DNA of 23,261 bases from a virus. This document shows, in pieces, positions 7,562 to 23,261 of the stretch (the stretch's first letter is position 1; each line of letters begins with the position of its first letter). Both the position numbers and the translations under genes were made by a program. The notes below the pieces were generated by a model. It saw only the letters and a list, made by a program, of their open reading frames with translations. It ran no database searches and was not told the origin of the DNA. Where the stretch lies: IMG/VR virus record IMGVR_UViG_3300043409_000666, positions 1-23,261 of that record, one strand, 5' to 3'.

Positions 7562-9404
7562 GGACCCGACGTTCAGTGGGATGAGCAGCACTGGCGACGC
7601 CGCTGAAGCCTTCGCCAAGGTCACGTCCCAGATCAAGTCCGACATGGCGGCGATGGAGAGGTCCGCCAAGAAGATCGAGCAGCATCTAGGCAAGGCGTCC
7701 AAGTACTCCCTTGGGGGAGGTGGCGTAGGCAGCGCTGACAAGGGCTCTGGGGGTACGGGGGACGCAGCCCCCGCCTTCACCGGATCCTCGCTGGGCGCGA
7801 TCTCGGTGTCCCAGTTGGGCGGGGCAAAGGGCGTGGGCTACGGCGCTGCCTTCAGCGGTGGAGGCATCGCTGGGGCTCTTGGAGCGTTCGGGGGCGGGGG
7901 GTTCTCAGGAGGCATGGCTGGTGGCCTCGCCTTCGCTGGTCTGCCTGATCTGGTCATGCGCCCAGAGCGTGCCCTGAACATGGAGGGTGCTCGGTTCGGG
8001 ATGGCTCAGGCCACCGGATCGTTCGGCACCTTCCAGAACATGATGAACACGGCTCGCAACCAGTTCAACGTGCAGAACGAGCAAGCGTTCATGAACACCA
8101 TGGTCTACGGCACCCAGCGCATGGGCATGGTGGGTCTGGCCGGTGGGGAGCAGCGGGCTGCCTCGCAGATCGGTGGGTACAACACCCTCGCTGGGATGGC
8201 GGGCATCGACCAGTCTGCGGTGCCGGGAGTCATGGGGTCCATGAACTCCGCTCAGGCGTACTACTCCTCCATGGCTGCTGGGGTGCAGACGAGGAACCCA
8301 GTGACGGGGGAGTTGCTCGGCATCGAGAGTCAGGTCAACCAACTCTGGGGATCCGCTGGGATTCAGGGGATGGGGCAGAAGCAGGCCCTCGATCAGATCG
8401 ACATCAACTATGGAATCGGGTCCGCTGGACGCGCCCAACTTGAGCAGATGTACGGCGGAGACCAGAACGCCGTCAACATGGTCGTAGAGGGTCTGCGTAT
8501 CCGGGCCCGTCAAGGCGGGGATCCTCTCAAGGAGAACCAAGTCCAAGATCAGGTCAAGGGCAAGGCTGGTGGTCTCGGTTCGGAGTACACGCAGGGCATG
8601 GAGGGAACGCGAGGGCTGGAAAGTTCCAAGATGGCGATGGGGGCGGAGTACCTCAACGACGCCACCGCTGGCATCGAAGAGGCTGCCAAGCACATCACCA
8701 ATGCGGTGGACCTCCTCACCGAACTGGAGGGTCCTCTCCGCGACATGGTGGGGGCCTACACCACGATGGCTAACCAGATGGATGTCTTCAAGACGGAACT
8801 CCCCAGAGCCACGGACGGAGTCACCTCCTTCTTCACGGGCCTTCCCGGACTGCTCACGTCCTTCATCATGGGCTCGTTCGGGAAGTCCATTCTGGGTCGT
8901 CTGGGGATCAGTGCTGGAGCCAGCCTTCTCGGGCCTGCTGCTGCCGCTGTCGCTCCAGTAGCCGCTTTGGGTGTTGGGATCGCAGGCGTGACGGCTGGTG
9001 TGGGTCTGGCGGGCAAGTGGGCAGTCAACAGGTTCACTGACTACGACGAGCACAAGGGTGCCAAGGCGAACAAGGCCCTCGCGGAGAAGCCCTACGTCCC
9101 CCGCGCTTCCGGGTACGGCTCCTACTCCAAGGGCGAGTGGTTCGTGGAGTCCGATCAGGTCGCTCAGATCCACTACGGCGAGATGGTGGTCCCCAACCGG
9201 ATCGCCACGGCTGTGCGCGAGGAACTGGCCGTGGGAAAGACCTCTCCGGTAGCCAAGAAGGAAGGCACCATCGTCAACATCAACTTGACGATCCAGAAGG
9301 CGTCAGACCAAGAGGCTGTGTACTTCGCTCAGAAGGTCAAGCGACTGATCGAGGATGACCGGGAACTCATGTCGATTGGGTCCGGGAGGATGGGCTATGC
9401 GTGA
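7554..9404 (+). CDS. Tape measure protein
   Basis: This 616-residue protein is expected to set tail length and leave through the tube at infection. It begins with GTG behind a good GAGAGGTGAG site. A short helical start (KVTSQIKSDMAAMERSAKKI) is followed by Gly-rich low-complexity sequence (about 53-130), long helical segments, a hydrophobic block at about 450-490 that could insert in a membrane, and a C-terminal part with the common GEMVVPNRIA motif. Position after the chaperone and the composition are the basis for the call. It is short for a tape measure; at roughly 1.5 angstrom per residue it implies a tail near 90 nm, which is inference. It has no built-in peptidoglycan hydrolase; those lie in the next two genes. 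Confidence 0.8.
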   Translation: MAEDPTFSGMSSTGDAAEAFAKVTSQIKSDMAAMERSAKKIEQHLGKASKYSLGGGGVGSADKGSGGTGDAAPAFTGSSLGAISVSQLGGAKGVGYGAAFSGGGIAGALGAFGGGGFSGGMAGGLAFAGLPDLVMRPERALNMEGARFGMAQATGSFGTFQNMMNTARNQFNVQNEQAFMNTMVYGTQRMGMVGLAGGEQRAASQIGGYNTLAGMAGIDQSAVPGVMGSMNSAQAYYSSMAAGVQTRNPVTGELLGIESQVNQLWGSAGIQGMGQKQALDQIDINYGIGSAGRAQLEQMYGGDQNAVNMVVEGLRIRARQGGDPLKENQVQDQVKGKAGGLGSEYTQGMEGTRGLESSKMAMGAEYLNDATAGIEEAAKHITNAVDLLTELEGPLRDMVGAYTTMANQMDVFKTELPRATDGVTSFFTGLPGLLTSFIMGSFGKSILGRLGISAGASLLGPAAAAVAPVAALGVGIAGVTAGVGLAGKWAVNRFTDYDEHKGAKANKALAEKPYVPRASGYGSYSKGEWFVESDQVAQIHYGEMVVPNRIATAVREELAVGKTSPVAKKEGTIVNINLTIQKASDQEAVYFAQKVKRLIEDDRELMSIGSGRMGYA

Positions 9405-10701
9405 CAACCCATCGTCTGGCGGGGGCAGCATCACGATCACGAGCCCTTCCTACTCACCCACAGCCGGTCCTACTACAGGGACCAGTGATGCCTCGGGCGG
9501 AACCGGTACGGCGGAGATCCAGAACTTCGATGCGTCGGGTCTCCCCTTCCGGTTCAACCCTCCGATGCACAAGATGTCGCGGCTGGTGCGTCCGGACCTG
9601 ACTGGGGCCTCCCCGAAGAGTTCCTTCGCCCGGTTCTACAACGAGGAGCACAACACCTACGACTCCGATTTCGCAGTGCGAAACGGGAACGGCAAGACGG
9701 GGTTCGAGAACCTCCGACTAGGTCGCATCGTCATGGACGACATGGCGATCACTCGGGGGATCATCGAGGGTGGCAAGAGGTACGGCTTCCGGTTCCTCTA
9801 CAACCCGGCGGAACTCAGCGGGACCCTGAACGTGGGAACGTCGTTCATCCCTGACCAGCGGGCTACCAACACTGCTGTCCTCCAGAGCGGTCTGGAGACG
9901 ATCACGTTCGAGGTGATGCTCAACCGGATCCCTGATGTGACCAGCAAGGCGACGACCTCGGACTACTCCCCGCAGATCTCGAAGGATGATCTGAAGCAGA
10001 TCAAGGAGCGAGGGACCCACTACGACCTCGACTTTCTGTACCGCTGCGCGAGCGGGGTTCACAACACGAGGGCCCGACAGAAGACTGGAGACATCGGAGT
10101 CCTTCTACCGAACCCCTGCCGACTGGTCCTTGGCCCCTATACCTCTCGTGGGGCTCTGGTCAGCGTGGCAGTGACCGACACCCTCTTCTCGGGGGACTTG
10201 GTTCCCACCGTCTCCTACGTCAACATCACCTTCGCCCGGTTCCTGAACATGGCCCCCTCAGATCAGACGAGGCTGGAGTCCTACGGGATCACTCGGGAGG
10301 GTGGAGCAGAGACCAGCACTGTCGATCCGCCCTCCAGTGTCGGCGGGTACGGGAAGTCCCTGACGGGCAAGTCCGTCTATGACTACGCGAAGGGCGCGGG
10401 GTTCTCCTCCACGGAGGCGGACACCATGACGAAGATCGCCAACAGGGAGTCCAACTGGAACACGCACGCCCACAACGGCAACGCGGGCACCGGGGACAAC
10501 TCGTATGGACTGTGGCAGATCAACATGCTCGGGTCCATGGGGACCTCCCGGCGTAAGGCGTTGGGGATCTCCAACAACGAGCAACTGTTCGATCCTGCGA
10601 CCAATGCGCGAGCAGCCCGGATGATCTACAAGAGTCAGGGCTACGGGGCATGGTCGGTCTACAAGAACGGCTCCTACAAGCAGGTCGCGAAGACGTGGTG
10701 A
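9397..10701 (+). CDS. Tail protein with C-terminal lysozyme-like (transglycosylase) domain
   Basis: This 434-residue protein starts at an ATG with GGGAGG 7 nt upstream, overlapping the tape measure end by 8 nt; a further in-frame ATG at 9355 lies inside that gene and has no clear site. Residues about 45-300 form a structural domain (FRFNPPMHK, LRLGRIV, YGFRFLYNPAEL) shared with the next gene. Residues about 325-434 form a lysozyme-fold domain with the catalytic-type Glu351 in IANRESNW and the following GDNSYGLWQINM, as in soluble lytic transglycosylases. It should sit near the tail tip and open the peptidoglycan locally during DNA entry. Copy 3 of the 13-bp palindrome lies in it, in a different codon frame from copies 1 and 2. 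Confidence 0.85.
   Translation: MRDNPSSGGGSITITSPSYSPTAGPTTGTSDASGGTGTAEIQNFDASGLPFRFNPPMHKMSRLVRPDLTGASPKSSFARFYNEEHNTYDSDFAVRNGNGKTGFENLRLGRIVMDDMAITRGIIEGGKRYGFRFLYNPAELSGTLNVGTSFIPDQRATNTAVLQSGLETITFEVMLNRIPDVTSKATTSDYSPQISKDDLKQIKERGTHYDLDFLYRCASGVHNTRARQKTGDIGVLLPNPCRLVLGPYTSRGALVSVAVTDTLFSGDLVPTVSYVNITFARFLNMAPSDQTRLESYGITREGGAETSTVDPPSSVGGYGKSLTGKSVYDYAKGAGFSSTEADTMTKIANRESNWNTHAHNGNAGTGDNSYGLWQINMLGSMGTSRRKALGISNNEQLFDPATNARAARMIYKSQGYGAWSVYKNGSYKQVAKTW
9669..9683. repeat. 13-bp palindrome, copy 3 (exact, extended to 15 bp)
   Basis: TTTCGCAGTGCGAAA, with the 13-bp core at 9670-9682 and one further symmetric T/A pair. It is read as TTC GCA GTG CGA Axx, so the codon frame differs from copies 1 and 2. 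It is 2630 bp from copy 2. Confidence 0.85.
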
Positions 10702-10705
10702 TGAG

Positions 10706-12001
10706 ATGAGGATGCCAGTCGATCCCGGAGGGTCAATCGTAGAGTCGGAGGCGGCGGAGGTAACCCCAGCGTCAGACGCAGAGAAGTCCGCTGACATCTC
10801 TCACAAGACATTCCGGTTCAACCCCCCGATGCACAGCGCGAACCTCTCGGTACGCCCGGACATGGGGAACGTGGGGCAGACCGCCTCCCAGTTCTACGAC
10901 GAGAAGACTGCGCCGTCGGGCTACACGGACAAGTGGGCTAAGGAGGGTCTGGGCACCCTGCGTCTGGGTCGGATCATCCAGCACTCTGTCGTCCCCGGAC
11001 CTGCTGGACAGATGTCCCGTCGATGGGGATTCCGGTTCCTCTACAACCCGACGACGATCTCGACGGCTGCATCGCGAAACGACTCCTTCGTCATCGACCC
11101 CCGCAGTGAAACCAATCAGGTCGTCTCGGGTGTGAGCCAGAACTTCCAGACCGTCTCCTTCACCGTGCTGCTGGACCGGCTTCCGGACATCGCCTCAGGG
11201 ATACCCAATGGTGGGAAGAACCAGTACTCTCCCAGCCTCAGCAAGTCAGACCGGGATGGGATCCTCCGGTACGGAACCCACTGGGATCTGGAGGCCCTGT
11301 TCAAGGTCTGCAACGGCGACTGGAACCTCACCGACCGGGGCAAGACCGCCAACATCGGGGTCCTCATGCCCAGCAACGCACGTCTCATCCTCGGGTCAGG
11401 AGTCAACTTCTACGGCTTCGTCATGGGAGTGACGTGGAAGGACGAGATGTTCCTCGGGAACATGATCCCGGTGCGCACTCGGGCGGACATCACCTTCCGC
11501 CGACATGTGGACATGACCATCGATCAGGCGAAGGCTGCCTTCCCCGGAATGGTCTCCGACGCGACGGATTCCCCGGCTGATCCGAACTCGGGTAGCGGAG
11601 ACAGTTCTGTTGGGAACAATCGGGATGCACCCGTGCCCGGCCACAATCGGGTCACGACTGGGTTCTATGGGTACTCGGGCCATAACGGGTGGGACTACGC
11701 CGTCCCCACGGGGACATCTGTCCACGCGACGCATGGTGGGGTGGTCGAGAGGATCCGGTACCTCACCAACTCGTACGGGAAGCATGTGTTCGTGCGGTAC
11801 GGGAACGTCCAGATGATCTACGCCCACCTGAGTGCCATCAACTCAGGTCTTCGGGAGGGCGCATCCATCAACTCTGGGGACTACATCGGCAAGTCCGGGA
11901 GCACCGGGAGATCGACTGGTCCTCATCTTCACTACGAAGAGCGAGTGTCCGGAACCTCCCGGATCCCACAGTTCGCGAACAACACCGGAAGGGTCCGCTG
12001 A
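10706..12001 (+). CDS. Tail protein with C-terminal M23 (LytM-type) peptidase domain
   Basis: This 431-residue protein is a paralogue of the preceding one: FRFNPPMHS, LRLGRII, WGFRFLYNPTTI and FTVLLDRLPDI align with its N-terminal domain in order. The C-terminal domain is instead an M23 metallopeptidase with all zinc-binding and catalytic positions present: H326-N-G-W-D330, and H407-L-H409 in GPHLHYE. M23 enzymes cut peptide cross-bridges, so the pair of tail proteins should attack both glycan and peptide bonds. A Ser/Asn/Gly linker (about 290-310) joins the domains. The ATG at 10706 follows the previous stop by 4 nt; a second ATG at 10712 is possible. The stop overlaps the next ATG by 1 nt. 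Confidence 0.88.
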   Translation: MRMPVDPGGSIVESEAAEVTPASDAEKSADISHKTFRFNPPMHSANLSVRPDMGNVGQTASQFYDEKTAPSGYTDKWAKEGLGTLRLGRIIQHSVVPGPAGQMSRRWGFRFLYNPTTISTAASRNDSFVIDPRSETNQVVSGVSQNFQTVSFTVLLDRLPDIASGIPNGGKNQYSPSLSKSDRDGILRYGTHWDLEALFKVCNGDWNLTDRGKTANIGVLMPSNARLILGSGVNFYGFVMGVTWKDEMFLGNMIPVRTRADITFRRHVDMTIDQAKAAFPGMVSDATDSPADPNSGSGDSSVGNNRDAPVPGHNRVTTGFYGYSGHNGWDYAVPTGTSVHATHGGVVERIRYLTNSYGKHVFVRYGNVQMIYAHLSAINSGLREGASINSGDYIGKSGSTGRSTGPHLHYEERVSGTSRIPQFANNTGRVR

Positions 12002-20182: not shown

Positions 20183-20398
20183 GTGGTATGGGCGACGCAC
20201 CGATACGACCCCTACTTGACAGATACGGAGGGGGCGTGGTGTAGGGTGTGCCCAGCCCCAAAGAGAACCGCCCCCCGGTTTCCCGAAGGGCGGTTCAGAG
20301 ACTGGGCCCGGTTGACGCCGGGTTCGCAGTCGAAACTGGAGAGTCCACCTCCAGTGCGATGTGCAAGAGCATCGTACAACAGGTGGCCTCTCCCTTGA
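20183..20398 (+). CDS. Small Cys-pair protein before the initiator (uncertain)
   Basis: This 71-residue frame begins at a GTG preceded by GAGGT with good spacing, and ends 1 nt before the ATG of the replication initiator, as expected for a coupled operon. The start MVWATHRYDPY, followed by WCRVCPAPKR, resembles the short actinophage proteins with an H/Y-x-P and C-x2-C pair, usually of unknown function. Against it: the C-terminal part lacks a second metal-binding pair, codon use is mixed, and three dyads lie within it. The frame is open further upstream (to 20126), but that part has AT-rich codons unlike the neighbours. Confidence 0.4.
   Translation: MVWATHRYDPYLTDTEGAWCRVCPAPKRTAPRFPEGRFRDWARLTPGSQSKLESPPPVRCARASYNRWPLP
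20216..20247 (+). promoter_or_regulatory. TTGACA ... TAGGGT promoter-like pair
   Basis: A perfect -35 hexamer TTGACA (20216-20221) is followed by TGTAGGGT (20240-20247). With TAGGGT as -10 the spacer is 20 bp, longer than normal; with TGTAGG it is 18 bp but a poor -10. It would start transcription at about 20254, upstream of the initiator, but inside the possible small gene. One of the two is probably spurious. Confidence 0.3.
20265..20296 (+). other. 9-bp stem-loop in the initiator leader region
   Basis: GAACCGCCC (20265-20273) pairs perfectly with GGGCGGTTC (20288-20296) around a 14-nt loop. No T-tract follows, so intrinsic termination is unlikely. It is followed by two shorter dyads, CCCGG/CCGGG at 20307-20322 and CTGGAG/CTCCAG at 20336-20354. 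The cluster could fold as a structured leader or mark a protein-binding region. Confidence 0.45.
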
Positions 20399-20408
20399 AA
20401 TGAGAGGC
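20386..20408 (+). promoter_or_regulatory. Hairpin spanning the initiator start codon
   Basis: GCCTCTC (20386-20392) and GAGAGGC (20402-20408) form a perfect 7-bp stem with a 9-nt loop. The ATG at 20400 straddles loop and stem, and AGGTGG lies just 5' of the stem. Translation of the initiator may depend on opening of this hairpin, for example by ribosomes finishing the frame that ends at 20398. Confidence 0.45.
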
Positions 20409-21320
20409 AAGAGATTGAGCCACGATTGGGTCGAGTACTCCATCAAGGAGTCTCCCTACACAGGTGCGACGTTTGCCGTCCACATGGTCCTCGCGCACCA
20501 CGCTGACAAGAACACCGGCATGTGCTGGCCCAGTCAGGACCTCATTGCCGAAGAGGCCCGTGTCACTGTGCGGACCGTCAAGAGGTCCATCAAGCAGATG
20601 TGCGATGACGGCTATCTGGAGCGGTCCTACCGCCACCGTCAGCGTCGGTACCGTCTTCTCGTATCCAACGGAGAGGGGACATGGGTGTCCCTTGAGAAGG
20701 GACATGGGAGTCCCTTGAGAGGGGACATGGGTGTCCCGTCAGAAGGGACACGGGTGTCCCTTGCATATAGAACCGTCACTGAACCGTCAGTAGAACCGTC
20801 AGTGGAACCGAAAAGCACCGGACCCTCCGGGCCCGGCGAAGGAGTAGACGTGAAGATCGGGAACCTCAGCGAGGACGCGGACATGCCGGAAATGGATGTC
20901 ACGCGGAATCCGAAGCGGAAGTTGCCGTTCAAGGCGGTCCCCCCGGTCGGCACCAACGACTGGCTGCTCTACCGGTTCGAGCAGGAGCGGGCACGGGCTG
21001 GGGTCCGGACCGGGAGGTACAACAAGGGTCACCTGAACCACACCTTCCGGTCCCTTCGGGATGATGACGGGATGACCAACGCGGAGATCGAAGTCCTGAT
21101 CCGCACCTTCTTCGTCCGTCACGGGGACGTGGCCCGGACCAAGGTCCGGGAGTGGGATCTCTCTTCGCTGTTCCGGCAGATGGTCCCCCAGTTGCAGATT
21201 CAGGCCAGAGACACGACCCGTGCCGTTCGAGACGGGCGCAAGACCACGACACAGAAGGGCAAGGAACTGAGCGGCGATCTTCTCGCTCGCTTCGGAGTAT
21301 CGAAGGATGATGACGAATGA
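20400..21320 (+). CDS. Winged-helix replication initiator (lambda O-type organisation)
   Basis: This 306-residue protein has an N-terminal winged-helix domain at about 9-85: FAVHMVLAHHADKNTGMCWP, then the helix-turn-helix SQDLIAEEARVTVRTVKRSI and a basic wing (RSYRHRQRRYRLL). A low-complexity linker (about 88-145) contains EPSVEPSVEP. The C-terminal domain (about 175-290) is helical and DnaD-like in style. The linker DNA carries four 23-bp iterons, so this is a likely initiator that binds an origin inside its own gene, as lambda O does. The ATG at 20400 was chosen because it lies 1 nt after the preceding frame; GTG at 20361 would add 13 residues, and TTG at 20415 is also possible. It overlaps the loader gene by ATGA, as expected for partner proteins. 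Confidence 0.78.
   Translation: MRGKRLSHDWVEYSIKESPYTGATFAVHMVLAHHADKNTGMCWPSQDLIAEEARVTVRTVKRSIKQMCDDGYLERSYRHRQRRYRLLVSNGEGTWVSLEKGHGSPLRGDMGVPSEGTRVSLAYRTVTEPSVEPSVEPKSTGPSGPGEGVDVKIGNLSEDADMPEMDVTRNPKRKLPFKAVPPVGTNDWLLYRFEQERARAGVRTGRYNKGHLNHTFRSLRDDDGMTNAEIEVLIRTFFVRHGDVARTKVREWDLSSLFRQMVPQLQIQARDTTRAVRDGRKTTTQKGKELSGDLLARFGVSKDDDE
20671..20762. repeat. Four 23-bp iterons, candidate replication origin
   Basis: Four head-to-tail units with exact 23-bp period. The dyad cores lie at 20676-20691, 20699-20714, 20722-20737 and 20745-20760. The core is GGGACATGGGTGTCCC (arms GGGACA and TGTCCC, 4-bp centre); unit 2 has one arm mismatch and unit 4 one change in the centre. The period is not a multiple of three, so each copy is read in a different codon frame and the repetition cannot be protein-driven. 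A short A/T-rich stretch (GCATATAGAA) follows. Confidence 0.85.
20771..20810. repeat. AACCGTCA direct repeats next to the iterons
   Basis: AACCGTCA recurs at 20771, 20782 and 20794, with a partial copy AACCG at 20806, at 11-12 bp spacing. It encodes the E-P-S-V repeat of the linker. Since most spacing is 12 bp (four codons) it may be a protein-level repeat, but one helical turn per copy would also suit a binding array. Confidence 0.6.
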
Positions 21321-22033
21321 CTGAGACCCAGAAGAAGAAGCGGTACTGGTACAGGCCGGATGGCTATGAGACCGATCACCTGATCGACTCCCTCTCCGAC
21401 GAGGAACTTCTCGACCATATGGGCGTCCCGCTGAAGTACATCCGGCACGCGGTCGCGATGCAGAACGATCTGCCAGATGAGGTGGAGTCGTGGTTGGCGA
21501 ACATGCCCTACGTCTACCGGCCCACCTTCGACCGGCTGGACAAGGACATGTGCGGCGTTGGTCTGGTCTTCTGGGGCGAGCCCGGAGGGCGGAAGACCAC
21601 CGTGGCGGCTGCCACCTTGTTGCGGGCGGTCCGACTGAAGACCCCCAACACCGACCCCACCGGACACAACTACACATGGCACGGGGCAGCGATGGGTCGC
21701 TTCGTGGACTGGCAGGAGGCCAGCGCGCTCTTTCGCAGTGCGAGTCGCAGCGAGGAGGACGAGATGGCGGCGGAGGAGGTCAAGAAGTTCATGAAGCCCA
21801 ACGGACCGGCGGTCCACCGGGCGGACTTCCTCATTCTGGACGACATCAGCCGCGAGCGGGCCACTGAGTTCAACATCACGGAGTTGCAGCGGACCCTCCG
21901 CCGTCGCGGGGACAATGGCTACCCGACCATCCTCACCAGCAACCGCCACCCGGACGATTGGGAAGAGGCGCATGGGGATGCCCTCTCCGGCTACATCCAC
22001 CGCCAGTTCCTTCCAGTCGAGTTCGCGCTGTGA
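21317..22033 (+). CDS. DnaC-like AAA+ helicase loader
   Basis: This 238-residue ATPase should load the DnaB-like helicase at the origin. It has a helical N-terminal part that may contact initiator or helicase (about 1-70), then the AAA+ domain: P-loop G87-E-P-G-G-R-K93-T-T, Walker B LILDD (D175, D176) and sensor-1 TILTSNRHP near residue 205. The third glycine of the P-loop is Arg92, unlike the usual GxPGxGK, which is odd but leaves Lys93 and Thr94. Length and fold match phage DnaC/DnaI-type loaders. It overlaps the initiator (ATGA) and the next gene (GTGA). Copy 7 of the palindrome, with one mismatch, lies at F-R-S-A-S. Confidence 0.85.
   Translation: MTETQKKKRYWYRPDGYETDHLIDSLSDEELLDHMGVPLKYIRHAVAMQNDLPDEVESWLANMPYVYRPTFDRLDKDMCGVGLVFWGEPGGRKTTVAAATLLRAVRLKTPNTDPTGHNYTWHGAAMGRFVDWQEASALFRSASRSEEDEMAAEEVKKFMKPNGPAVHRADFLILDDISRERATEFNITELQRTLRRRGDNGYPTILTSNRHPDDWEEAHGDALSGYIHRQFLPVEFAL
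21732..21744. repeat. 13-bp palindrome, copy 7 (one mismatch)
   Basis: TTCGCAGTGCGAG matches 12 of 13 positions; the last base is G instead of A. It is read as xTT CGC AGT GCG AGx in the helicase loader gene and is 2273 bp from copy 6. Confidence 0.65.
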
Positions 22034-22443
22034 AGGACAACGACCTGAGCGCAGCGCCGACCCATCGCTACTGGGTCCTGTCGGACTTGGTCTTCACCAA
22101 GGTGGAGTCCAGTGAGGTGAAGAAGGCGGGGTGGTTCCGCAAGACGGAGACCATCACCATCACCCGCGCCCCAGACCTGCGGGTCATGAGTGAACTGTGG
22201 CGGTGGAGTTCCCGGTACGGGGTCCGGCTCGAACTGATCTTCGTGGGTGAGGACGACGCACCGGGACTCTGGGACTCACTGATCAAGGCAGCCAACCCGT
22301 TCAGCGACTTCATCGAGTTCGAGAACATCAACGACGTGGTGGGGCTGATGGACTACCGACCTGACCTACTCGGAGTCATTGACGTTCCGGAACGCTCCGC
22401 CTACTACGGCGGTCGTGGACTGACCATGCAGGAGTTGAGGTAA
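22030..22443 (+). CDS. Unknown protein between helicase loader and helicase
   Basis: This 137-residue protein is not recognised. It starts with GTG in a GTGA overlap with the loader; the frame is open upstream but only inside that gene. It is soluble and alpha/beta, with a first part rich in Lys/Thr strands (FRKTETITITRAP), a helix MSELWRWSSRYGVRLELIFVG and a later DYRPDLLGVIDVPERSAYYGGRG. No cysteine clusters or known nucleotide-binding motif are visible. Its place in a tight initiator-loader-helicase operon suggests a role in replication or its control, which is inference only. Confidence 0.65.
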   Translation: MKDNDLSAAPTHRYWVLSDLVFTKVESSEVKKAGWFRKTETITITRAPDLRVMSELWRWSSRYGVRLELIFVGEDDAPGLWDSLIKAANPFSDFIEFENINDVVGLMDYRPDLLGVIDVPERSAYYGGRGLTMQELR

Positions 22444-22446
22444 CCC

Positions 22447-23261
22447 GTGGCACTCTCCAACGAGAACCGGATCATCGCCAAGATCATCACCGAGCGGGAC
22501 ATCACGGCGGTCAGGGACCGGGGGATGACCTCCAAGTGGTTCTACGGCCCAGAGCATAAGGACGCGCTGGACTTCATCCTCAAGCACCACGAGAAGTACG
22601 GCGAGGTGCCGACCAAGGTGGCCTTCCAGAGCCACTTCGGAACGAAGTACAAGATCGTCTCCATCCCAGAGGCGATGGACTACCTGCTCGACACCTGTGC
22701 CGAACACGCCCAGTGGATGCACGCCAAGGAGGTCTCGCTGAACGTCGCGGACGACCTCAAGGACAGTCGCACCGCTGACGCCATCGCCAGCATGGAGGCG
22801 GGGCTCGCCAAGATCCGGTCGTTCACCCCCGTGGCGACCCATCTGGTGGACTCCATGGACAACGACCGACTGGAGGAGCGGTGGAAGGAGTACGACCTCA
22901 GGAAGACCTCCACCGGTCTGCTGGGGTACTCCACCGGGTTCCCCACGATTGACGACGCGACGCTGGGTCTCCAGAACGGCCAGTTGGTCACGCTGCTGGC
23001 CCAGCAGAAGGTGGGCAAGACCAGCCTGTGCCTGACGATGGGCAACAACATCTACGCCAACCACAAGGTGCCGATCCTGTTCGTCACCTTCGAGATGAGC
23101 GTTCGTGAGTTGGAGATGCGGCAGGAGTCACTGATGGCTCACATCAACTTCCGCCACCTCCAGAAGGGCGACCTGACTCCGCTGGAGGAGAAGCGCTACG
23201 ACGAGTGGTTGGATATGGCCCAATCTGACTACGACTGGCCGTTCCACTTCATGGATGTCGC
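22447..23261 (+). CDS. dnaB: DnaB-like replicative helicase (truncated by window end)
   Basis: The frame starts with GTG, with GAGG 7 nt upstream, 3 nt after the previous stop, and runs off the window; 271 residues are visible. The N-terminal part (about 1-125) is helical, as in the DnaB primase-interacting domain. The RecA-like domain follows with TGFPTIDDATLGLQNGQLVTL, the P-loop A185-Q-Q-K-V-G-K-T-S (DnaB proteins commonly have A-x4-GKT) and the H1a strand ILFVTFEMS with its Glu. It is expected to form a hexamer that unwinds the fork after loading by the DnaC-like protein. No intein or split is seen in the visible part. Confidence 0.88.
   Translation, partial: MALSNENRIIAKIITERDITAVRDRGMTSKWFYGPEHKDALDFILKHHEKYGEVPTKVAFQSHFGTKYKIVSIPEAMDYLLDTCAEHAQWMHAKEVSLNVADDLKDSRTADAIASMEAGLAKIRSFTPVATHLVDSMDNDRLEERWKEYDLRKTSTGLLGYSTGFPTIDDATLGLQNGQLVTLLAQQKVGKTSLCLTMGNNIYANHKVPILFVTFEMSVRELEMRQESLMAHINFRHLQKGDLTPLEEKRYDEWLDMAQSDYDWPFHFMDV

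Follow-up and report, generated by a model that had tools for sequence, protein, structure and literature searches.

Four dyad-bearing iterons inside the replication initiator gene of an uncultured contractile-tail phage very probably serve as initiator-binding sites of a putative theta-type origin, as judged from sequence comparison. The window, by which we mean the whole stretch of DNA analysed (23,261 bases of an IMG/VR record), thereby gains a testable candidate origin, and its array is a further member of a known in-gene origin design, not a new type.

Architecture of the initiator gene and its iteron array

The features of the replication region are as follows.

20361-21320, + strand: replication initiator gene; HTH_36 winged helix (residues about 35-100), iteron linker and helical C-terminal part
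20671-20762, unstranded: four 23-bp iterons with GGGACA-N4-TGTCCC dyads (AGTCCC in unit 2)
20676-20691, unstranded: iteron dyad 1, GGGACATGGGTGTCCC
20699-20714, unstranded: iteron dyad 2, GGGACATGGGAGTCCC, one mismatch
20722-20737, unstranded: iteron dyad 3, GGGACATGGGTGTCCC
20745-20760, unstranded: iteron dyad 4, GGGACACGGGTGTCCC
20760-20819, unstranded: AT-richer stretch adjoining the iterons, candidate unwinding element
20768-20810, + strand: 12-bp direct repeat TAGAACCGTCAG, 3.7 copies, in codon frame, encoding EPSV-type repeats
21317-22033, + strand: DnaC-like AAA+ helicase loader (phrog_50, E=7e-15)
22030-22443, + strand: 137-aa ORF between loader and helicase, function unassigned, no Pfam match
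22447-23261, + strand: DnaB-like replicative helicase, truncated at the window end (PF03796, E=5e-15; phrog_19, E=5e-32)

The four units are arranged head to tail with starts at 20671, 20694, 20717 and 20740 (dyad cores at 20676, 20699, 20722 and 20745), which confirmed the exact 23-bp period described in an earlier note on this DNA. That note assigned a GGGACA-N4-TGTCCC dyad to each unit; units 1, 3 and 4 are indeed perfect, but "each" was slightly overstated because unit 2 carries one mismatch (GGGACA-TGGG-AGTCCC). The array spans codons about 104-134 of 319, directly past the winged helix, and its units fall at codon phases 1, 0, 2 and 1, out of step with the reading frame as had been proposed. 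When the same protein was recoded synonymously with phage codon usage, none of 2000 recodings matched either array score (23/24 palindromic matches; 18/23 identical columns). A scan of the whole window detected no second dyad array besides 20671-20762.

The AT content of 20760-20819 is 50% against a window mean of 37%, placing it among the top 0.8% of the window's 60-nt stretches; at 50% this richness is nevertheless just moderate, and we counted it against the origin reading. GC skew displayed no sharp switch at 20.7 kb. The in-frame 12-bp array at 20768-20810 (TAGAACCGTCAG) sits immediately 3′ of the iterons. Among the surveyed loci described below, enrichment of 9-, 12- or 15-nt tandem repeats after arrays was marginal (p=0.08), and this array was therefore kept out of the proposed mechanism.

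The initiator matched PF13730 (HTH_36; E=1.9e-11), the sole family above its cut-off, as well as the PHROG replication-initiation families phrog_270 (3e-11) and 'O-like' phrog_391 (2e-9), neither PHROG match extending beyond the winged helix-turn-helix (wHTH) and part of the linker. It had no match to Pfam Phage_rep_O (PF04492) at E<=1, to PDB proteins by phmmer or to INPHARED phages by tblastn. A low-confidence AlphaFold2 model (mean pLDDT 43) placed helices at residues 35-82, wing strands at 86-99, an unstructured region at 100-197 and further helices at 198-310. The start codon is uncertain: the gene can begin at GTG 20361, and the in-frame ATG at 20400 reads ACG in the related contig L006. 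Close relatives in IMG/VR were limited to L005 (99.9% by DNA) and L006 (97.3%), and searches with the loader and the helicase returned the same two contigs.

The earlier note had a DnaC-like loader and a DnaB-like helicase following the initiator directly. This is true of the loader gene, which overlaps the initiator 3′ end by 4 bp, but the 137-aa ORF precedes the helicase gene. Its term "myovirus" is correct as morphology, since contractile-tail genes (sheath, gp25-like wedge, baseplate J) lie 5′ of the initiator. Among the best helicase relatives, phages of Streptomyces and Mycobacterium predominate (27-30% identity), which hints weakly that the host may be actinobacterial. Elsewhere in the window, two adjacent lytic-domain genes (9355-10701 and 10706-12001; SLT lysozyme-like and M23 peptidase) have N-terminal parts that look alike by eye.

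Dyad arms are held while spacers turn over

We compared the window with L006 (97.3%) and found changes at 2/48 arm positions, 11/16 spacer positions, 5/28 positions of the inter-dyad linkers and 12/868 positions in the rest of the gene. By these counts, the spacers vary much more than the remainder of the gene, whereas the arms are conserved. In three other, independent pairs of relatives that carry different arrays and whose genes differ by 15-29%, the arms were unchanged (L173/L185, 0/48; L255/L257, 0/24; L008/L009, 0/24), with a combined p of about 9e-8 for arm conservation. Together, this evidence points to selection on the dyad arms at the DNA level, and the view that the repeat is conserved as DNA was upheld by the recodings, by L006 and by the other pairs alike.

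Between the window (20676-20760) and L006 (3424-3508), the 4-nt spacers seem to have been inverted in place, with TGGG becoming CCCA, CGGG becoming CCCG and TGGG becoming CCCG; read as the reverse complement, the window spacers agree with those of L006 at 12/16 bases, against 5/16 in the same orientation. Such inversion could have arisen from template switching at palindromes or from exchange with another phage.

These comparisons bear on two other explanations of the repeats. Neutral tandem duplication, or a protein-level linker repeat devoid of cis function, would be in keeping with the tolerance of linkers for repeats and with the neighbouring in-frame 12-bp array, yet it is scarcely credible given the out-of-frame 23-bp period, the 0/2000 outcome of recoding and the conservation of arms although encoded residues change: the initiators of the window and L006 differ at 14/319 residues, 10 of them at positions 108-134. 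It is also very improbable that the repeats act in mRNA as four GC-rich hairpins controlling translation or mRNA stability. The RNA does fold much more stably than shuffled sequences (-69.9 kcal/mol, z=-3.9), but palindromic DNA repeats fold so anyway, the helical phasing has no RNA rationale, and identical primary sequence recurs in unrelated genes. Moreover, the departures from the dyad, namely A in the window against C in L006 in the right arm of unit 2 and TGACCC in unit 3 of L006, are uncompensated on the opposite arm.

In-gene dyad arrays among winged-helix initiators

A motif-free survey covered wHTH initiator loci matching phrog_270, PF13730, phrog_391 or PF04492, drawn from samples at order, class or phylum level around several genomes. 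We used a strand-aware detector that assumes no motif and seeks a repeated dyad with 6-nt arms, a spacer of 3-8 and units 18-50 bp apart, its threshold having been set on 360 prior shuffles, of which 1 exceeded it. Dyad arrays were detected in 34/131 loci (22/90 + 12/41), compared with 1/129 upstream 900-nt regions (1/89 + 0/40) and 0/524 codon shuffles; three quarters of the surveyed loci had no array at the detector threshold. The detector also recovered lambda's annotated iterons.

Every survey array begins 213-397 nt after the start of the HTH match. The spacings cluster at 21-24, 33-34 and 42-48 bp, which are multiples of about 11 bp, and phasing on 11 bp was pronounced (per-locus Rayleigh p about 3e-8). 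Across 37 loci, AT content is 52% in the 80 nt after the array and 42% beyond (p=3e-7). Collectively, the survey shows that wHTH initiators well beyond lambda commonly carry predicted iterons of this kind, in-gene dyads phased to the helix and flanked by AT-rich DNA, and their presence in a contractile-tail phage is unsurprising because the design is this widespread. In L182, L210 and L217, the arrays lie at or just past the stop codon of short HTH proteins; an array therefore need not be coding.

The GGGACA dyad in other initiators

Paired GGGACA-N4-TGTCCC dyads were searched in viral and genome contigs; this set is motif-chosen and serves for description, plus tests where stated. In the motif-found initiators, the dyads are in-gene, immediately past the winged helix and 20-24 bp or 45-46 bp apart. 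The initiators are of several kinds: HTH_36 (L060, L072, L114), a sub-threshold Phage_rep_O match (L100), RepA_N (L125), phrog_270 (L115), phrog_678 (L126) and unclassified wHTH-like proteins (L008-L010, L040, L053). The RepA_N-type gene of L125 (753-1667, - strand) carries GGGACA dyads as in HTH_36 initiators, 22 and 24 bp apart, followed by AT-rich repeats. Within the window and the L005, L006, L114 and L126 records, the GGGACA dyad is confined to the in-gene array.

Paired dyads also turned up in other settings. Four phage contigs (L117, L118, L123, L124) have two GGGACA dyads 45 bp apart within a predicted membrane-protein gene, a non-initiator. Poribacteria, Verrucomicrobia and other genomes (e.g. 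L021, L026, L061, L071, L085) hold paired dyads 25-57 bp apart at several loci per genome; many of these pairs, at spacings of 25-45 bp, were set aside as lying outside recognisable initiators and often outside plausible genes, and probably constitute a dispersed repeat family.

The 1.1-Mb Clostridia genome that holds L060 (6703-7725, - strand) contains only three copies of the dyad. The third (G002:C23:15708-15723) overlaps the initiator start, about 360 bp away from the two in-gene copies, and suggests autorepression at that locus. This arrangement fits a reading of the dyads as operators through which the initiator or another regulator controls its own operon, with the origin elsewhere, and palindromic operators of wHTH proteins are common. 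For the window array we consider that reading unlikely: tandem helix-phased arrays about 300 nt into a gene beside AT-rich DNA typify origins rather than promoters, related designs already described are origins, and scoring by the sigma-70 consensus only gave no promoter-like match around the array. Operator and origin roles may both be present.

Dyad arms covary with the recognition helix

We quantified whether the iteron arms track the protein by partial Mantel tests on 37 non-redundant loci. Similarity of the arms correlated with that of the recognition helix (partial r 0.26, p=0.0005) but not with that of the remainder of the domain (partial r 0.008, p=0.43); relatedness in the arm-helix test was controlled through the rest of the domain only, and the covariation could retain some phylogenetic signal. 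Without the motif-selected loci (n=30), the association with the helix persisted (partial r 0.20, p=0.007). Furthermore, arginine at one helix position was present in 11/11 loci with a GGACA half-site as opposed to 10/26 others (max-statistic permutation p=0.013); this test was prompted by a prior look at the data, and its p accounts for the selection of column and residue but not for that of the GGACA class.

The arm-helix dependence offers indirect indication that the surveyed initiators may bind their own iterons. A broader proposal is that a readable code operates across the class, in which the HTH_36-type recognition helix would dictate its own in-gene half-site, GGGACA-N4-TGTCCC would be one recurrent word, and the spacer would be free and locally inverting. 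According to this proposal, the word would pair with a helix of the form [KR]-[TS]-[VIL]-x-R or similar and would be used by different initiator families in phages of several bacterial phyla. Taken jointly, we put this forward tentatively, with slightly less than even confidence. If the link between helix and half-site holds, sequence could be used to predict the origins of many uncultured phages and plasmids.

Proposed mechanism at the candidate origin

The arrangement of the window array, the conservation of its arms, the class-wide position, spacing and AT flank, and the statistical dependence between arm and helix are directly supported; arm conservation, helix-phased spacing, AT flank and arm-helix dependence also lend support to the putative lambda O-like in-gene origin that the earlier note had envisaged. 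From this pattern, we infer binding, unwinding, helicase delivery and origin activity in the window phage. In the proposed sequence of events, winged-helix dimers would bind GGGACA half-sites about two helical turns apart, a spacing that would put the initiator dimers on the same side of the DNA helix. This nucleoprotein complex would open the AT-richer stretch at about 20760-20820, and the C-terminal part of the initiator and/or the DnaC-like loader would deliver the phage's own DnaB-like helicase. As the window is a metagenomic fragment, a further origin elsewhere is possible.

Comparison with known systems

Lambda O/ori-lambda, like the Stx phages P27 and 933W, resembles the window in having iterons with internal dyads in the linker between wHTH and C-terminus, an AT-rich neighbour and a loader gene next. 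The annotated lambda iterons occupy codons 117-145 of the 300-codon O gene, lie 20-24 bp apart and adjoin AT-rich DNA, so the matching gene position and the internal symmetry had been rightly noted, as had the dissimilar iteron sequence (ATCCCTCAAAACGAGGGA in lambda against GGGACA-N4-TGTCCC in the window). In a P27 lambdoid plasmid, silent iteron mutations abolish replication, and the lambdoid ori lies in O (PMC7466680). Lambda differs in its P-type non-AAA+ loader and its use of host DnaB, whereas the window has a DnaC-like AAA+ loader and its own DnaB-like helicase. The likeness to lambda thus extends to array position, spacing and AT flank but not to a Phage_rep_O match or to loader type; with its own helicase and other iterons besides, membership in the lambda O family by sequence is not supported.

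To our knowledge, no loader or helicase genes lie beside rep in pSK41 or pPR9. These plasmids (RepA_N in pSK41; Rep with an HTH_36 N-terminus in pPR9) have an ori within the initiator gene linker, where the window has its candidate origin, and differ from it in being staphylococcal plasmids with a C-terminal domain of another kind. The pSK41 ori lies in a dispensable rep linker, with four Rep boxes midway along rep, and pPR9, set apart from pSK41 by an HTH_36 domain and the ori region belonging to it, still replicates, which shows that this combination makes a functional replicon (PMC5703833). In the RepA of V. cholerae PLE, the DNA-binding domain and semi-palindromic iterons covary and function only as cognate pairs (PMC8263062); it differs from the window in its RepA_N domain, its intergenic iterons of about 30 bp and its setting in a satellite element.

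The 38-39-40 module of Bacillus phage SPP1 has the gene order found in the window, an initiator gene containing the origin (a candidate one in the window) followed by a loader and a phage DnaB-family helicase (PMC6316719). SPP1 gp38, which acts together with gp39 and gp40, binds oriL within gene 38, and oriL comprises direct repeats and an AT-rich unwinding element in the initiator gene (PMC6316719). The likeness is one of gene order; SPP1 differs in having a second origin, oriR, and the window in its extra 137-aa ORF before the helicase. Because the window pairs a DnaC-like loader with its own DnaB-like helicase, its module logic is nearer to SPP1 38-39-40 than to lambda. By analogy, though it would work like lambda O/ori, the window module would stand nearer in its logic to SPP1 38-39-40 and pPR9/pSK41. 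Of greater interest are the anatomy that the class shares, the reappearance of a single dyad in initiators of several families, and the association between helix and half-site.
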